From Paraescarpia echinospica (Eukaryota; Annelida; Polychaeta; Sabellida; Siboglinidae): a DNA stretch of 64,000 nt. Where the stretch lies: contig CM034531.1 in the NCBI GenBank assembly GCA_020002185.1, positions 79,356,052 through 79,420,051 of the forward strand, written 5' to 3'. The position numbers were made by a program, and so were the translations under genes. The notes under the pieces were generated by a model. That model was not told where the DNA came from. It did not search any database and worked only from the letters and a program-made list of their open reading frames with translations. Below are positions 14,551 through 20,927 of this stretch, in pieces (the stretch's first letter is position 1; each line of letters starts with the position of its first letter).

Positions 14551-14993
14551 TTTAATTGTTTGTTTTACACATGCAACATAGGCTAACGTGCAAGGCCTAG
14601 CCTTAGAGCTACAATTAAATATTATTTTATTTATAGTATTTGTATATTATGTTTTATATGATTCTATATTACCAATTGCATTATATTATGATGTAATGTT
14701 TTATATTAATTGTCCTATTTTATTGTCCATGTATTTGCAACATGGTATTTATATATATTGCTTTTTTATTCCTGTATACTTTCCATAAATTTATGTATAA
14801 GCCCAGGGATACAGTGAAAAACTGTATTTTAATCTAAATGTACTAGCCTACCCTGTACAGATACGTTTAAACAAAATAAATAAATAAACAAATATATAAA
14901 TAAATAGGCATAAATAAATAGTGTTTGAAGGCAAATTTGCAATAGGCCTATGACAGATTGAACAGCTATTGACTAATATTTTCTTTTGTAGAA

Positions 14994-15580
14994 ATGGTCC
15001 GCACGTACAAGCGCAAGTCGGAACGGGGTGCACATGTTGAAGGAGGCATTGGCAGCGCTGGAGAATCAACCTATGAAGGCCTATGGCATTCCGGCCAGGA
15101 CGCTGCGAAGACACCGCGACAACAAAGTCGCCACTGTGAGATCGCTATATATCGGCCCAATGCAACCAATACTATCGGCTGACGTGGAACGCACGCTGCG
15201 CGAACACATCGCGTATATGGAGAAGTGCCTGTACGGCTTGACGACCGTGGACGTCAGGCGCCTCGCGTACGATCTCGCGCTGGCTTCACGGCTTCTTCGA
15301 GCGCCACCCTGACCTGGTTATTCGGCAGCCTCAGGGTACGAACATCGCAAGCGCTGTCGGTTTCAATCGCCCTAAAGTGCAATTGTCCACTGCTGGCCCG
15401 CCACCGTTCACTGCTGGCCCGCCACCGTCCACCTCTGGGCCGACACCGTCCACTGCTGGGCCGACACCGCCCACTGCTGGCCCGCCAACGACCGCGTCCG
15501 CAGGAGTGTCGACCGTTAAGGAGCTGATAAAGCACCCATCTCCGTTGCCAAAGATATCGCGTCCACGTGCAAGATACATC
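14994..15580 (+). pseudogene. Pogo-like transposase lacking its DDE domain
   Basis: The frame opens with MVRTYKRKSERG, the usual start of pogo/Tigger-type transposases. After a frameshift near 15027 it continues with a psq-like helix-turn-helix (ALAALENQPMKAYGIPARTL) and the beginning of a CENP-B-type domain (HIAYMEKCLYGLTTVDVRRL). A second shift near 15285 leads to FFERHPDLVIRQPQGT and SAVGFNRPKV. The family's catalytic DDE domain of roughly 200 residues should come next. Instead the frame runs straight into a Pro/Thr/Ser-rich linker of repeated TAGPPPST units and the tail STVKELIKHPSPLPK. Only DNA-binding and tail regions remain. The two frameshifts argue against a functional product. Confidence 0.7.
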
Positions 15581-15740: not shown

Positions 15741-15956
15741 TTTAATGGTTGAGTTCGCCGAAGCCGATTCACACTTCGCGGTCCGCTTATAACACGCTTT
15801 GCAAGTTTCGTTTGAATAACGTCTAGCGTCGCAATATAGCAATAGCGATAGTTAGTCTGATGAATGTAGTTGAAAGCAGTTAATCAACACCGGAAAGAAA
15901 GAAAGATAATTATGTGGTATACAAGAAAAGAAGGTACACTATATGCAATTAAAGTA
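15741..15956 (+). repeat. Dispersed repeat, left half, split by transposon 2
   Basis: Aligns with 5044-5435 but lacks the middle part (about 5090-5235). It ends in ATATGCAATTAAAGTA at the left TA of transposon 2. The continuation TAAGTGTTTGTGTGACAC, at 19654 onward, matches the next bases of the uninterrupted copy at 5403-5430. Confidence 0.8.
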
Positions 15957-15980
15957 GGGGAAGTACACCGATATTGGACC
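15957..15980 (+). repeat. Left terminal inverted repeat of transposon 2
   Basis: The 24 bases match the reverse complement of 19630-19653 except for two positions. They sit directly beside TA. Confidence 0.9.
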
Positions 15981-16277
15981 TGTACTTAAATTGGACCACC
16001 GTCCGTTCTGCGTCCTGTGTATAGTAATTAGATCGCAGTGACGCCCGGCGGATGCTTCACACAACATACCATCTATACGCAGAGCAAAATAAAAAAAAAA
16101 AAATTCCATATCGTTGTAATATTTTTTTTAAATTGAAGACGTGATGCAAAGCCTGTTACATAGTAGATTGTACACGATCACAATAGAGTGTCGTAGGATG
16201 TCTATATAACGTGTATGAAGACAGAAAATTGTACAGTTTCCGAGAATCACATCGAAGAAGTTAATTATGCCTTCGAC

Positions 16278-16352
16278 CGATATTGGACCAGTCGGGGTGC
16301 CCTATGTTGGACTACTGGTCCAATATAAGACACCCGTGGTCCACTATTCGTA
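16278..16352. repeat. Left subterminal motif array of transposon 2
   Basis: CGATATTGGACCA, which is the inner part of the terminal repeat, recurs here with inverted versions (TGGTCCAATAT, GTGGTCCA) about 320 bases inside the left end. The arrangement matches the array at 19394-19472 near the right end. Confidence 0.75.
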
Positions 16353-16618
16353 CCATCTCAACACACACGAGATATGGAAATGTGTCATATTTAAATTTCT
16401 GCATGTATATATTAGACTCTTACTTATGGCTCGGGGCCTTGTTGAGTGAGAGGGGAGGCCTACATTTAAAAAAAACGGGGTATATTATTTTCTGAAATAT
16501 TCACTTTGTTAGACATTTTTGCTGGAATATGCGGAAAAATAAAAAACAAATAATATTTGTTTCTTCAAAACGCCTCATTATTTTATTGATGATATAAACA
16601 TCGCACGTTGCTTAAAGT

Positions 16619-17649
16619 TTGAGTTTTGACTTAAACAACAAAAACAAAATCGCTAATGGTCCAAGAAAGGATTTTGGTCGCCTTTGCACTCTGCCGCCAG
16701 AGTTGGAGAAAATGCTAGTGGAGCATGTTTTAGAACTGGAGAATATGCTGATTGGTATGACCAGGAAAGATTTGATGGATATGGCATATCAGTTGGCTGT
16801 AGAGAATGGGATAAGGCATTGCTTCAACACTAAAAAACAAGCAGCTAGCAGACATTGGTACCGTGATTTTATGAGGAGACACCCTGAACTCTCCCTTCGT
16901 CAACCGAGGCAACTTCTGTTACGAGAGCCAAAGGGTTCAATCGTGAGAGTGTGTATGAGTTCTACGATAAACTAGATACATTGGTTGACACGTACGGATT
17001 CGATGCTACAAACATCTTTAACATGGATGAATCGGGTATAACAACTGTGCAGAAGCCTGGCCGAGTCCTTGGAAAAAGAGGGGGAAAGCAAATCAGATAT
17101 CATACTAGTGGTGAGAGAGGCTTTACTACAACAGTGGTGTGTAGCATGAGTGCAGGGGGAAACTATGTTCCACCAATGATAATGTTCAGGCGTAAACGCA
17201 TGATAGAATCATTGAAGGAAGGGGCACCACCTGGAAGCGTCATAGTGAGTAATGAATCAGGCTGGATGAACAAGGAACTCTTCGTCGTCTGGCTGAAGCA
17301 CTTCGTATCTCATGTTGGCTGCAAATACAAACATGATCTGTTGATTCTTGACGGCCATTTGTCACACACGAAAAATACTGAAGCAACCCATTACGTCCGG
17401 GACCACGGAGTCGTCATATTATCTCTTCCTCCACACAAAACGCACCGTGTCCAACCCATTGATCGGGTTTTCTATAAATCTCTGATGACTTATTACAATG
17501 AGGATTGGCTGATGACCGAAAAAACCACAGTCATCACCTCCTCAGTCTGCCGTATCTTCGGAAGGGCATGCGTACGCTCTGCTTCCATGGCAACTGCTGC
17601 CAATGCTTTCAAGTGCACAGGCATTTGGCCTTGTGATCTGAACATATGA
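16619..17649 (+). pseudogene. Pogo/Tigger-like DDE transposase, one frameshift
   Basis: Residues from 16619 give a CENP-B-type helix-turn-helix region (TLPPELEKMLVEHVLELE, then GMTRKDLMDMAYQLAVENG, then RRHPELSLRQP). A one-base frameshift near 16930 leads into the DDE domain. The catalytic aspartates are all present: FNMDESG (first), LILDGHLSH (second) and VQPIDRVF (third). There are 36 residues between the second and third Asp. The domain closes with FKCTGIWPCDLNI, a typical family ending. An in-frame TGA follows at 17647-17649, after which TDADFAAAG, also family-like, continues in the same frame. The psq-type N-terminus seen in transposon 1 is not visible and may be in a lost upstream exon. 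The frameshift and the stop make this copy inactive. Confidence 0.85.
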
Positions 17650-17653
17650 ACTG

Positions 17654-18118
17654 ATGCAGATTTCGCCGCGGCTGGAAGGTTCCTACTCGGAAACTGGTAT
17701 AGATGTTTCATCGAATTCTGCCAGAGATGCCACTATGCAGAATGACAACTCGTCAAATACAACAAACACGTCCGCGAGCGAGCAACAGTCCAACAACCGA
17801 AGGCTGTCCACGAGCAAACAACAATCCACTGATCCATGTCCGTCCACAAGCAAGCAACTGTCCAACAACCGAAGTCTGTCTACATGCGACCGACAGTCCA
17901 ATGATCCATGTCCGCCCACAAACAAGCAACAGCTCAATGAGCTGAGCTCATCCACAAGCACCAGGCAGAATAGTTTCAACCCATGCCCATCCATGAGCGA
18001 TCAACAGTCTAACAAACCTAGCCTGTCCGCGAATGAGCAACAACAGTCTAATGACCCAAGTCAGCGAGCAACAATCCACCAACCAAAGCCTGTCAACGAG
18101 CGAGTAACAGTCCAATGA
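17654..18118 (+). pseudogene. Ser/Gln/Asn-rich linker of transposon 2 protein
   Basis: A 154-codon open frame built of imperfect repeats such as STSKQQSTDPCPSTSKQ and NNRRLSTSKQQ, rich in Ser, Gln, Asn and Thr. It occupies the place of the low-complexity spacer that follows the DDE domain in pogo-type transposases. The internal repetition is visible in the DNA as a period of roughly 90 bases. It is in another frame than both the transposase and the OTU segment. Confidence 0.55.
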
Positions 18119-18146
18119 TCCATGCCCATCCACAAGCAGCAGACAG

Positions 18147-18587
18147 AATTATATCTGGTGTGTCGCAACCAATACAGATGGACGTTGTTTCTTCCGAGCC
18201 GTTGTTATTTGTCAAGATCTCGATATGCAGCATGCAGAAAGAGACAACGATGGCAATTTAAAGGACGAATGAGAACACGAGAATTGACTTCCGCTGATGC
18301 GCTACGATTCAACATGATTGCACATATGCTAGACAACTTTGTTCTTTATGAAAACATTGATGAGACGATGGTGAACGCAGATCTACCTCGGAGACAGTGA
18401 AATGATTGAGGAGATAGAGATCGTTGCGACGGCACGCTGTCTTCAACGACCAGTGCATGTCTCCGTTGGAGAGAGTGTACTTGAATTTGGGACGGAATTT
18501 CATGAGTCTGGTGCAATTCTGGTCAAATACCTAAATCTGAGTGAAGATGCTGGTCATTATGAAGCATTAGTCCCAATCACGGGGTAG
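18147..18587 (+). pseudogene. OTU-type cysteine protease domain inside transposon 2
   Basis: Three segments read as an OTU deubiquitinase-like domain. Segment 1 (about 18147-18267) has the catalytic cysteine motif NTDGRCFFRAVVI, with Cys at 18186-18188, followed by RDNDGNLKDE. Segment 2 (about 18270-18380, a different frame) reads SADALRFNMIAHMLDN. Segment 3 (about 18378-18587, same frame as segment 1) reads YLGDSEMIEEIEIVATARC, LQRPVHV and closes with the catalytic histidine motif AGHYEALVPI, with His at 18555-18557. The order and spacing fit the family: DGxC at the start, a helix around Leu-Arg, E-I-E-I before a beta strand, and G-H-Y at the end. Two frameshifts (near 18280 and 18380) break it. 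After a TAG at 18585-18587 the same frame continues into the transposase-type tail, which argues that the domain belongs to the element's protein and is not a separate insertion. Confidence 0.75.
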
Positions 18588-18750
18588 CTGACTGATCAAC
18601 CAGAGCTTGGTAGAAAGGTCATCACTCCTGCAATGCTGTCTCCCATCCCAAAACCAGCGATTTCTAGGGCCAAAAGAAGAACCACCAAGTCGGAAATCAT
18701 AACCTCCAGTCCCCATAAAAACTTTAACAACGAAAGTCATAAGGCACAAG
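18588..18750 (+). pseudogene. Basic tail of the transposon 2 protein
   Basis: In the frame of the OTU segment, after one TAG, the translation gives MLSPIPKPAISRAKRRTTKS and EIITSSP. This is the Pro/Lys/Arg-rich kind of tail that precedes the C-terminal finger in pogo-type transposases. It is comparable to PSPLPKISRPRAR in transposon 1. A TAA ends it at about 18750, and the next 120 bases are shifted. Confidence 0.6.
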
Positions 18751-18877
18751 CGTAAGCATAACTCATCAGTTGGTAAAAGAAACAGAAAGACAACAGATCC
18801 AATTAAGATAGGAAAAAGAAAAAAAACCGGCAGCTTTCTCCTGCCAGCTAAAACGAAAAAAGCGGTTAATGTGACAA

Positions 18878-19013
18878 CGAGTCTTGGTACTGTGAACTGT
18901 TTGACGAAGAGCGAAAAGAAACCATGGTGAAATGTGTACACTGTGGGATATGGACACACATGAGTTGTGCTGGAGGCCTGCCCTATAACTATCGATGTGA
19001 CGTGTGCCAGTAA
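18878..19013 (+). pseudogene. C-terminal PHD-like zinc finger of transposon 2
   Basis: The last coding piece reads WYCELFDE, then MVKCVHCGIWTHMSCAG, then YRCDVCQ and a TAA stop at 19011-19013. The spacing of C-x2-C, H-x2-C and C-x2-C is that of the second half of a PHD finger. Many invertebrate pogo/Jerky-type transposases end in such a finger. It is in the same frame as the OTU domain and the basic tail from ETMVKC on; the start is in a shifted frame. Confidence 0.65.
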
Positions 19014-19393
19014 AAGATCGTATTCCTAATTTGGTGATCAGGCACCATCAATTACTGACTGGTATCTTTTTGCCATTATTAGACACTCTACTAGCCATTA
19101 TTTTGTTGGTTTGTTCGTTTATCCGTGACAGATTCTATCGTGGCAATCACTTTGTCGGCGTATTCCTGTATTCGTGACAAAATATAATTGTTTGTTCTCA
19201 ATTCAGAATTAAATTATGTCAAATCTATTTGGCGCTTAGTCGTTGCATGTCATTTGTAATCTCACTGGAACGCCGTAGTTTTCGTGATTTATGCATTAAG
19301 CCACTACCTTCTTATAAGTCTGAAGTGCCTGCTGAACCTCGGTTTCTTTCAAAGCATCAAGCATTGACGGATGACGTATATTGAACCATAAGC

Positions 19394-19472
19394 ACCTACA
19401 TTGGACCACCTGGTCCAATATCAGGACCACTGTAGTCCAATATATGTCACCCGTTACTCAAATTGGACCAAT
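19394..19472. repeat. Right subterminal motif array of transposon 2
   Basis: TTGGACCA and its inverse TGGTCCAATAT occur several times within 80 bases, about 180-260 bases inside the right end. The layout mirrors the left array at 16278-16352. Confidence 0.75.
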
Positions 19473-19629
19473 TACGAAAAACACTTTTTTTGCATTTTGT
19501 GGAAAAAATTACAAATGCATTGACTCTATTTCCTGCTTGCGCACAGAGCTTGTAGTAACTCGTGGCCAGATCCTTAATAGTCCTCGGTATCACGTACAGG
19601 AATGGAGAAAGAGGGCTCGGAAGTTAGGG

Positions 19630-19653
19630 GGTTCAATATCGGTGCACTTCCCC
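19630..19653 (-). repeat. Right terminal inverted repeat of transposon 2
   Basis: Ends in GGTGCACTTCCCC directly before TA. The reverse complement matches the left repeat at 22 of 24 positions. Confidence 0.9.
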
Positions 19654-19655
19654 TA

Positions 19656-19927: not shown

Positions 19928-20927
19928 NNNNNNNNNNNNNNNNNNNNNNNNNNNNNNNNNNNNNNNNNNNNNNNNNNNNNNNNNNNNNNNNNNNNNNNNN
20001 NNNNNNNNNNNNNNNNNNNNNNNNNNNNNNNNNNNNNNNNNNNNNNNNNNNNNNNNNNNNNNNNNNNNNNNNNNNNNNNNNNNNNNNNNNNNNNNNNNNN
20101 NNNNNNNNNNNNNNNNNNNNNNNNNNNNNNNNNNNNNNNNNNNNNNNNNNNNNNNNNNNNNNNNNNNNNNNNNNNNNNNNNNNNNNNNNNNNNNNNNNNN
20201 NNNNNNNNNNNNNNNNNNNNNNNNNNNNNNNNNNNNNNNNNNNNNNNNNNNNNNNNNNNNNNNNNNNNNNNNNNNNNNNNNNNNNNNNNNNNNNNNNNNN
20301 NNNNNNNNNNNNNNNNNNNNNNNNNNNNNNNNNNNNNNNNNNNNNNNNNNNNNNNNNNNNNNNNNNNNNNNNNNNNNNNNNNNNNNNNNNNNNNNNNNNN
20401 NNNNNNNNNNNNNNNNNNNNNNNNNNNNNNNNNNNNNNNNNNNNNNNNNNNNNNNNNNNNNNNNNNNNNNNNNNNNNNNNNNNNNNNNNNNNNNNNNNNN
20501 NNNNNNNNNNNNNNNNNNNNNNNNNNNNNNNNNNNNNNNNNNNNNNNNNNNNNNNNNNNNNNNNNNNNNNNNNNNNNNNNNNNNNNNNNNNNNNNNNNNN
20601 NNNNNNNNNNNNNNNNNNNNNNNNNNNNNNNNNNNNNNNNNNNNNNNNNNNNNNNNNNNNNNNNNNNNNNNNNNNNNNNNNNNNNNNNNNNNNNNNNNNN
20701 NNNNNNNNNNNNNNNNNNNNNNNNNNNNNNNNNNNNNNNNNNNNNNNNNNNNNNNNNNNNNNNNNNNNNNNNNNNNNNNNNNNNNNNNNNNNNNNNNNNN
20801 NNNNNNNNNNNNNNNNNNNNNNNNNNNNNNNNNNNNNNNNNNNNNNNNNNNNNNNNNNNNNNNNNNNNNNNNNNNNNNNNNNNNNNNNNNNNNNNNNNNN
20901 NNNNNNNNNNNNNNNNNNNNNNNNNNN
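19928..20927. other. Assembly gap of exactly 1000 N
   Basis: Exactly 1000 unknown bases, the length often used as a placeholder, so the true size is probably unknown. Any reading frame shown across it is meaningless. It hides the start of the first amidohydrolase-like gene. Confidence 0.98.

Follow-up and report, generated by a model that had tools for sequence, protein, structure and literature searches.

Transposons that carry deubiquitinase-family domains have been described before. In Ginger1 elements, which are known from hydra, gastropod, and aphid, the transposase bears a C-terminal OTU or Ulp1 domain, and in one family the Ulp1 domain is accompanied by a PHD finger; the lancelet elements are described as lacking OTU, Ulp1, and PHD domains (PMC2836005). 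According to the authors of that study, repair factors may be affected (PMC2836005). OTU domains also occur in Helitrons and Helentrons (PMC6431247, PMC9741609), and transposons carry active deubiquitinases of a different class, VTD, which have been proposed to shield transposition proteins from the proteasome (PMC9741609). Here we analyze a 64,000-nucleotide stretch of the genome of the annelid Paraescarpia echinospica (contig CM034531.1, positions 79,356,052 to 79,420,051; "the window"). Positions 15957-19653 of the window hold a cut-and-paste transposon of the pogo superfamily. This copy has decayed: its transposase and its OTU domain are both broken, and a PHD-like finger follows them.

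Like Ginger1, this element has a single transposase protein with an extra OTU domain at its C-terminal end. The two differ in that Ginger1 is built around a Gypsy-integrase-type core and makes a 4-bp CCGG-like target-site duplication (TSD) (PMC2836005), whereas this element has a DDE_1 domain with three aspartates (D,D,D), 24-bp terminal inverted repeats (TIRs), and a TA duplication. Helitrons and Helentrons likewise carry deubiquitinase-family domains (OTU and VTD), but they rely on a rolling-circle RepHel protein and have no classical transposase (PMC9741609, PMC6431247). The main text of three surveys of pogo and Tigger elements (PMC7325037, PMC7386202, and PMC9219625) does not mention OTU or PHD domains, and we found no report of an OTU domain in a pogo transposase among the matches listed from an open-access library. 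In other words, OTU domains in transposons as such were already known, from Ginger1 and Helitrons, and within that scope we found no earlier description of an OTU-bearing pogo transposase.

Transposase and OTU in one protein

We are nearly certain that this family encodes one protein with the architecture HTH_psq, HTH_Tnp_Tc5, DDE (D,D,D), repetitive linker, OTU, basic tail, and PHD, and that the OTU domain has been inherited within one transposase lineage instead of having been inserted into the window copy. This conclusion is based on two other copies in the genome whose frames join the domains, on predicted proteins that contain these domains and no stop codon, and on the presence of OTU sequence in every copy that retains both the transposase and the PHD finger.

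First, the element is present in many copies: we searched the 1.08-Gb genome for DNA matches to the whole element, scored the best 40 of 450 candidates, and fetched 39 further places, or 40 with the window copy. (Places in the genome are labeled L and database proteins P. A domain was counted as present if at least 40% of it aligned well.) The transposase is present in 33 of the 40 places, the OTU domain in 38, and the PHD finger in 39. All 32 copies with both transposase and PHD contain OTU sequence, although in some it is partial (L042 lacks the Cys side). The preliminary description of this element had named family copies without the OTU domain, together with a target duplication around the OTU piece here, as the finding that would count against it, and no such copy turned up among these 32. 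No intact copy was found among the fetched places: the longest open frame on the element strand has 461 amino acids. This open reading frame (ORF), L012:1640-3022, runs from within the DDE domain through a complete OTU domain. It matches part of DDE_1 (E = 8e-14) and the full-length OTU model (E = 4.9e-8), both above the cut-off; the OTU match scores 34 bits against a cut-off of 23.3 and covers positions 2-128 of the 128 in the profile. In L020, a single frame of 801 codons, never shifted but containing three stops, leads from HTH_Tnp_Tc5 through the linker and the OTU domain to the stop codon of the PHD finger; HTH_psq sits in a different frame.

Second, when we searched with the conceptual read-through of the window copy and scored only its OTU-to-PHD part, we obtained six proteins from 851 candidates, each of which has DDE_1 and OTU matches as well (the OTU match of P0003 is below the cut-off). 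Predicted proteins with no stop and with both DDE_1 and OTU above the cut-off are P0001 (855 amino acids), P0009 (808), P0011 (811), P0002 (752), and P0005 (751). The transposase part as the query gave 154 proteins, of which we examined the best 120. The best five all contain OTU sequence, and one of these, P0007, is cut off. With a profile built from the pogo OTU domains, OTU sequence was found in 13 of 126 database proteins, only partially in P0007 and P0036. The order linker, OTU, TSSPYK-type motif, basic stretch, PHD is seen in eight of the nine proteins that hold OTU, motif, and PHD; the exception is P0001, in which the motif precedes the OTU domain. HTH_psq and HTH_Tnp_Tc5 are both above the cut-off in P0009 and P0011, and the pair is also found in L019 and L032 (with psq below and at the cut-off, respectively). 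Of 127 proteins with or without OTU, 87 have the complete Cys4-His-Cys3 pattern of the PHD finger, and PF00628 is above the cut-off in P0011. Where the source names the organism of an OTU protein, it is Littorina saxatilis (P0004 and P0028). No relatives were confirmed in viral and prokaryote collections, and the TIR pattern had no matches in viral contigs.

The window copy and its family

The features of the window copy are as follows (window coordinates; strand where applicable).

15955..15956: TA target-site duplication, 5' side (window sequence)
15957..15980, + strand: 5' TIR, 24 bp (repeat search of the window)
15990-15998, 16282-16290, 16316-16324: subterminal TGGTCCAAT motifs, 5' (exact match)
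16616..16972, + strand: transposase piece 1, HTH_Tnp_Tc5 (Pfam, E = 6e-7)
16622..16629: deletion junction (~550 bp missing internally relative to L020, among them the HTH_psq region)
16888..17649, + strand: transposase piece 2, DDE_1 (PF03184; Pfam, E = 2.3e-19)
17026-17028, 17350-17352, 17461-17463, + strand: catalytic Asp codons, D,D,D (read from sequence and translation)
17770..18138, + strand: Ser/Gln/Pro-rich linker with 36-bp (12-amino-acid) repeats, continuing directly into the start of the OTU domain
18108..18587, + strand: OTU domain in three pieces, 18108-18269, 18266-18385, and 18384-18587 (Pfam and our OTU profile)
18186-18188 and 18552-18560, + strand: OTU Cys codon and GHY motif (read-through)
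18588..18876, + strand: basic tail with the ITSSPxK motif, here ITSSPHK (motif common to relatives)
18873..19013, + strand: PHD-like finger, with the stop codon (retains 7 of the 8 metal ligands)
19400-19408, 19411-19419, 19462-19470: subterminal TGGTCCAAT motifs, 3' (exact match)
19630..19653, - strand: 3' TIR (two mismatches relative to the 5' copy)
19654..19655: TA target-site duplication, 3' side (window sequence)

The borders, the 24-bp inverted repeats, and the TA are exactly where the preliminary description placed them, and its DDE transposase with three aspartates is borne out by the DDE_1 match and by all three codons. Its other claims about the coding region were right in part. Both of the OTU motifs that it reported (DGRCFFRAV and AGHYEALVPI) are present, but the domain is broken by two frame switches and lacks ~46 bp relative to L012 and L020. 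It had put the OTU domain and the tail in one frame, separated by a TAG, with the PHD end in that frame too. The TAG does follow the OTU domain (it is a Gln codon in L020 and several other copies) and the PHD finger is in the same frame, but the basic region is partly read in a different one. The PHD-like finger that it described is there, minus its second Cys. The copy is dead: a read-through takes eight pieces and crosses three in-frame stops, and the transposase and the OTU domain are in different frames.

Within the window, the 24-bp TIR has only these two matches at up to 3 mismatches, and none were seen in 100 shuffles. All six exact matches to TGGTCCAAT in the 64 kb lie inside the element, near its ends, with 0.6 expected; these repeats are candidate transposase-binding sites. 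The 3' OTU fragment alone matches Pfam's OTU model at E = 4e-4, two bits below the cut-off, and the sole Pfam matches of the 5' fragment, to Thionin (0.015) and Peptidase_C65 (0.047), are both below the cut-off. Our OTU profile matches the window read-through at E = 5e-52, with the window row being among the profile's own 12 seeds. PF00628 matches the PHD finger of L020 below the cut-off (E = 2.7e-4; 21.3 versus 24 bits). Just past the element, exactly 1000 N at 19928-20927 mark an assembly gap.

The element shares with the pogo superfamily the TA TSD, a TIR of under 40 bp, and DDE_1 (PMC7386202): its TIR, at 24 bp, is of the commonest type (40 bp or less), and its DDE_1 domain has D,D,D. The last two aspartates are separated by 36 residues in 12 of the 13 OTU rows measured and by 35 in the other. 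The preliminary description had gone further and placed it in the pogo/Tigger group. The superfamily holds, but Tigger is only one of two candidate subgroups. Fot and Fot-like elements mostly have TIRs of 40-60 bp and DD35D, with TAA in most Fot elements, and combine HTH_psq with HTH_Tnp_Tc5; Tigger elements have DD29-36D and either CENP-B_N with HTH_Tnp_Tc5 or HTH_Tnp_Tc5 alone (PMC7386202). Our family has the HTH_psq and HTH_Tnp_Tc5 pair of Fot/Fot-like (psq is deleted in the window copy), but not the 40-60-bp TIR or DD35D. It has the TA, short TIR, and spacing of Tigger, but in P0009, P0011, L019, and L032 we found HTH_psq and no CENP-B_N at E = 0.01. The DNA-binding pair thus fits Fot/Fot-like, while the TIR, TA, and spacing fit Tigger better.

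Both TIRs are present in 25 of the fetched copies. TA flanks 21 of these at either end, and two of the 21 (L011 and L033) are duplicates. Since L011 (G000:C6:8705105-8708801) shares both flanks with the window copy (99.3 and 97.6% identity over 280 and 253 bp), this pair is a segmental duplication and not a separate transposition. L032 and L033 are also segmental duplicates, and so are L034 and L035 on one flank. In 27 genome matches, the alignment stops at query position 666 and resumes at 673 or later, past extra sequence (in L020, from 993 to 1546). The extra stretch holds HTH_psq, at the cut-off in L032 and below it in L019. This region is missing from the window copy, L012, and L013; for L023, the same is indicated only by an unbroken match across 666-673. 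The flanks of L012 and L013 differ from those of the window copy. Because psq-less copies stand at different sites, a deletion derivative without HTH_psq appears to have multiplied, and a transposase-defective subfamily seems to have moved in trans.

Other pogo relatives are found nearby and across the genome. Directly upstream of the element, 14571-15574 is a deletion derivative (88-94% identity in three blocks) of a second, OTU-less pogo family, which has an open 707-amino-acid relative in L057:408-2528; the linker of the derivative is an array of 21-bp repeats (15385-15487). L057 itself has DDE_1, and a stop truncates its PHD finger. With P0009 as the query, we found 56 transposase places (the best 56 of 9139 candidates). 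Seventeen of them have an OTU match within 3.5 kb: 12 belong to the window family (including L052, by sequence) and 5 are others. Separately, L058, L059, and about eleven more places, mostly on small contigs, have near-equal OTU scores (38% identity, query 3-132). The two that we read, L058 and L059, are near-identical truncated copies of the window family, which suggests that places of this type were amplified inside another repeat.

Proposed activity of the OTU domain and alternative explanations

Our favored reading is that the fused OTU domain is a tethered, active deubiquitinase that works in cis, and we give this reading as a whole a probability of roughly 55%. On family grounds, the domain is probably a catalytically active deubiquitinase. 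That it acts in cis, on the transposase or on local chromatin, is a possibility that we hold tentatively, at somewhat less than even odds. The transposase would carry the deubiquitinase to the ends of the element, where the OTU domain would strip ubiquitin during transposition from the transposase complex, from chromatin proteins at the ends and the break, or from both. Removing ubiquitin could spare the complex from degradation or damp the host's ubiquitin-dependent damage response, and the PHD finger and the basic tail may hold the enzyme on nucleosomes.

The domain has the expected catalytic Cys and His motifs and, in L012, a full-length profile match. In all 12 OTU domains that reach that far (11 from database proteins and the window read-through), GRCFFR is present and GHY precedes a D, E, or N; much of the core is conserved between proteins as well. 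Across the 66 pairs of 12 proteins, the median identity is 51% for DDE, 39% for OTU, and 24.5% for the linker, which is near chance. (The DDE piece of P0003 is short and that of P0008 is long; P0007 and P0036 were excluded for incomplete OTU domains.) For the close pair P0002 and P0004, the corresponding identities are 96, 95, and 85%. When a profile of 11 OTU domains was compared to solved structures, it matched OTUD5 and OTU domain-containing protein 2 (E = 4e-4).

Several observations weigh against the favored reading. The structure matches span only the His-side half of the domain; for the OTUD5 stretch by itself, the i-Evalue is 0.08. P0003 lacks the Asp before GRC (GGRCFFR), and decayed copies have lost motifs: L058 reads GRYFFR, and L060 reads DRCLFR and GHH. 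We also compared changes common to at least 3 copies with singletons, as ratios of nonsynonymous to synonymous changes (N/S), after dropping L011, L033, and L035. No purifying selection was detectable on either domain among the genome copies: N/S over neutral was 1.29 for the OTU domain and 0.89 for the transposase, neither distinguishable from drift. The basic tail gave no purifying signal in this test either. The ratio was 0.37 for the PHD finger (Fisher p = 0.019; versus neutral, p = 0.011) and 0.49 for the linker (p = 0.083 and 0.040), both from small counts on which we do not rely. Finally, 39 of the 56 P0009-type transposase places have no OTU match within 3.5 kb, which is an upper bound, as they were checked against 97 of the ~150 OTU places listed, with small contigs mostly left out.

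The alternative that survives best, though we think it unlikely, is that the OTU domain is fused and folded yet no longer a protease, and instead binds ubiquitin or is a mere spacer. The missing Asp in P0003 and the lack of a purifying signal on the OTU domain would fit, and PMC9741609 states that the OTU domains of transposons had yet to be assayed for activity. Against this, the Cys and the GHY plus D/E/N are retained in 12 of 12 OTU domains, even though the other aligned ones are just 33-53% identical to that of P0009.

It is considerably less probable that the OTU domain cuts the linker of its own transposase, or a non-ubiquitin protein. Its placement behind a long repetitive linker could suggest self-processing, but the linkers fail to align with each other, and we noticed no common cut motif, although none was searched for. 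Also, known OTU proteases target ubiquitin or ISG15. Ginger1 bears OTU or Ulp1 at the same end, so the need for a protease there may be generic (PMC2836005).

Could OTU and PHD instead form a second ORF, with its own transcript or splicing, that is not fused to the transposase? The different frames of transposase and OTU in the window copy might give this impression, but we reject it as very improbable: L020 has one frame across the domains, the ORF of L012 is open over the junction, and predicted proteins of 751-855 amino acids elsewhere hold both domains. Of the two options in the preliminary description, one protein or one second ORF, the first is upheld by the same copies and proteins, as is its argument against a chance insertion.

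That a host OTU gene or another transposon inserted by chance into the window copy alone can be dismissed, even though the genome does contain another type of OTU, given the frames of L012 and L020, the OTU sequence in 38 of 40 places (and in all 32 that retain both transposase and PHD) as well as in proteins from other organisms, and the alignment scores of that other type, which is no closer to the pogo OTU domains than shuffles are.

This other type was found with PF02338, which matches 68 places in the genome; all four that we read (L061-L064) hold it, and the OTU domain of this repeat family reads PGDGSCQF...HYVCL. Alignments of the L061 and L062 domains to pogo OTU domains score 28-47, while shuffles reach 46 and 49 and pogo OTU domains score at least 207 against each other; the pogo-OTU profile gives them just 6.4 and 3.4 bits. 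With scores at the level of shuffles, capture of the pogo OTU domain from an element of the L061/L062 type is not supported. From its look, the L061-L064 family is possibly Ginger1-like; Pfam found no integrase in two pieces of L063.

Possible exchange of the OTU-PHD end and its implications

In a quick transposase tree (336 columns and 127 rows, of which 113 lack OTU and 14 have it), the presence of OTU requires two changes, and none of 500 shuffles gave a number as low. Thirteen of the 14 OTU rows are in one branch (SH-aLRT 77), within which a set of eight rows that includes the window has support of 95. A single gain of the OTU domain in the 13-row branch is likely, but not firm. The remaining row, P0001, groups with 15 OTU-less rows (a set of 16, with support of 99), and forcing the 14 OTU rows into one group was rejected (p = 0.016, for a quick tree and a group that was set beforehand by domain). 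The PHD finger of P0001, however, is closest to that of the window among 87 PHD fingers (24 of 43 positions identical), and its OTU domain clusters with window-type OTU domains, with weak support (70/82) in a tree whose inner support is weak.

With P0001 as the query, we found 53 places in the genome (the best 53 of 3604 candidates). Of these, 52 end at or before residue 548, and the OTU domain of P0001 starts at 549, by profile; the sole match that runs to the end of the protein is the L020 copy. The simplest reading is that P0001 is an OTU-less transposase that took the OTU-PHD end of a window-type element. No second protein of the P0001 type was found: the OTU domain of P0001 as the query gave only P0001 and P0010 among 280 candidates. 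The evidence for this swap is a single predicted protein encoded on a contig of 2,951 bases, where misassembly is possible.

A broader proposal, which we regard as speculative and rather doubtful, is that OTU and PHD together form an exchangeable cassette, which transposases can acquire or swap and which in P0001 was joined at about residue 545 to a transposase of an OTU-less lineage. Such a cassette would let the transposase itself read chromatin and erase ubiquitin, and it might be a convergent counter to host ubiquitin control in Ginger1, Helitrons, and pogo elements.

More broadly, deubiquitinase-family domains are found in integrase-type (Ginger1), rolling-circle (Helitron), and pogo transposons, which points to a common pressure of the host ubiquitin system on transposition. 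Pogo elements offer a handy test bed: OTU-bearing and OTU-less relatives (such as L057) have the same catalytic core and are found in one genome. With these relatives side by side, and with the apparent natural swap in P0001, the effect of the domain should be testable by comparison.

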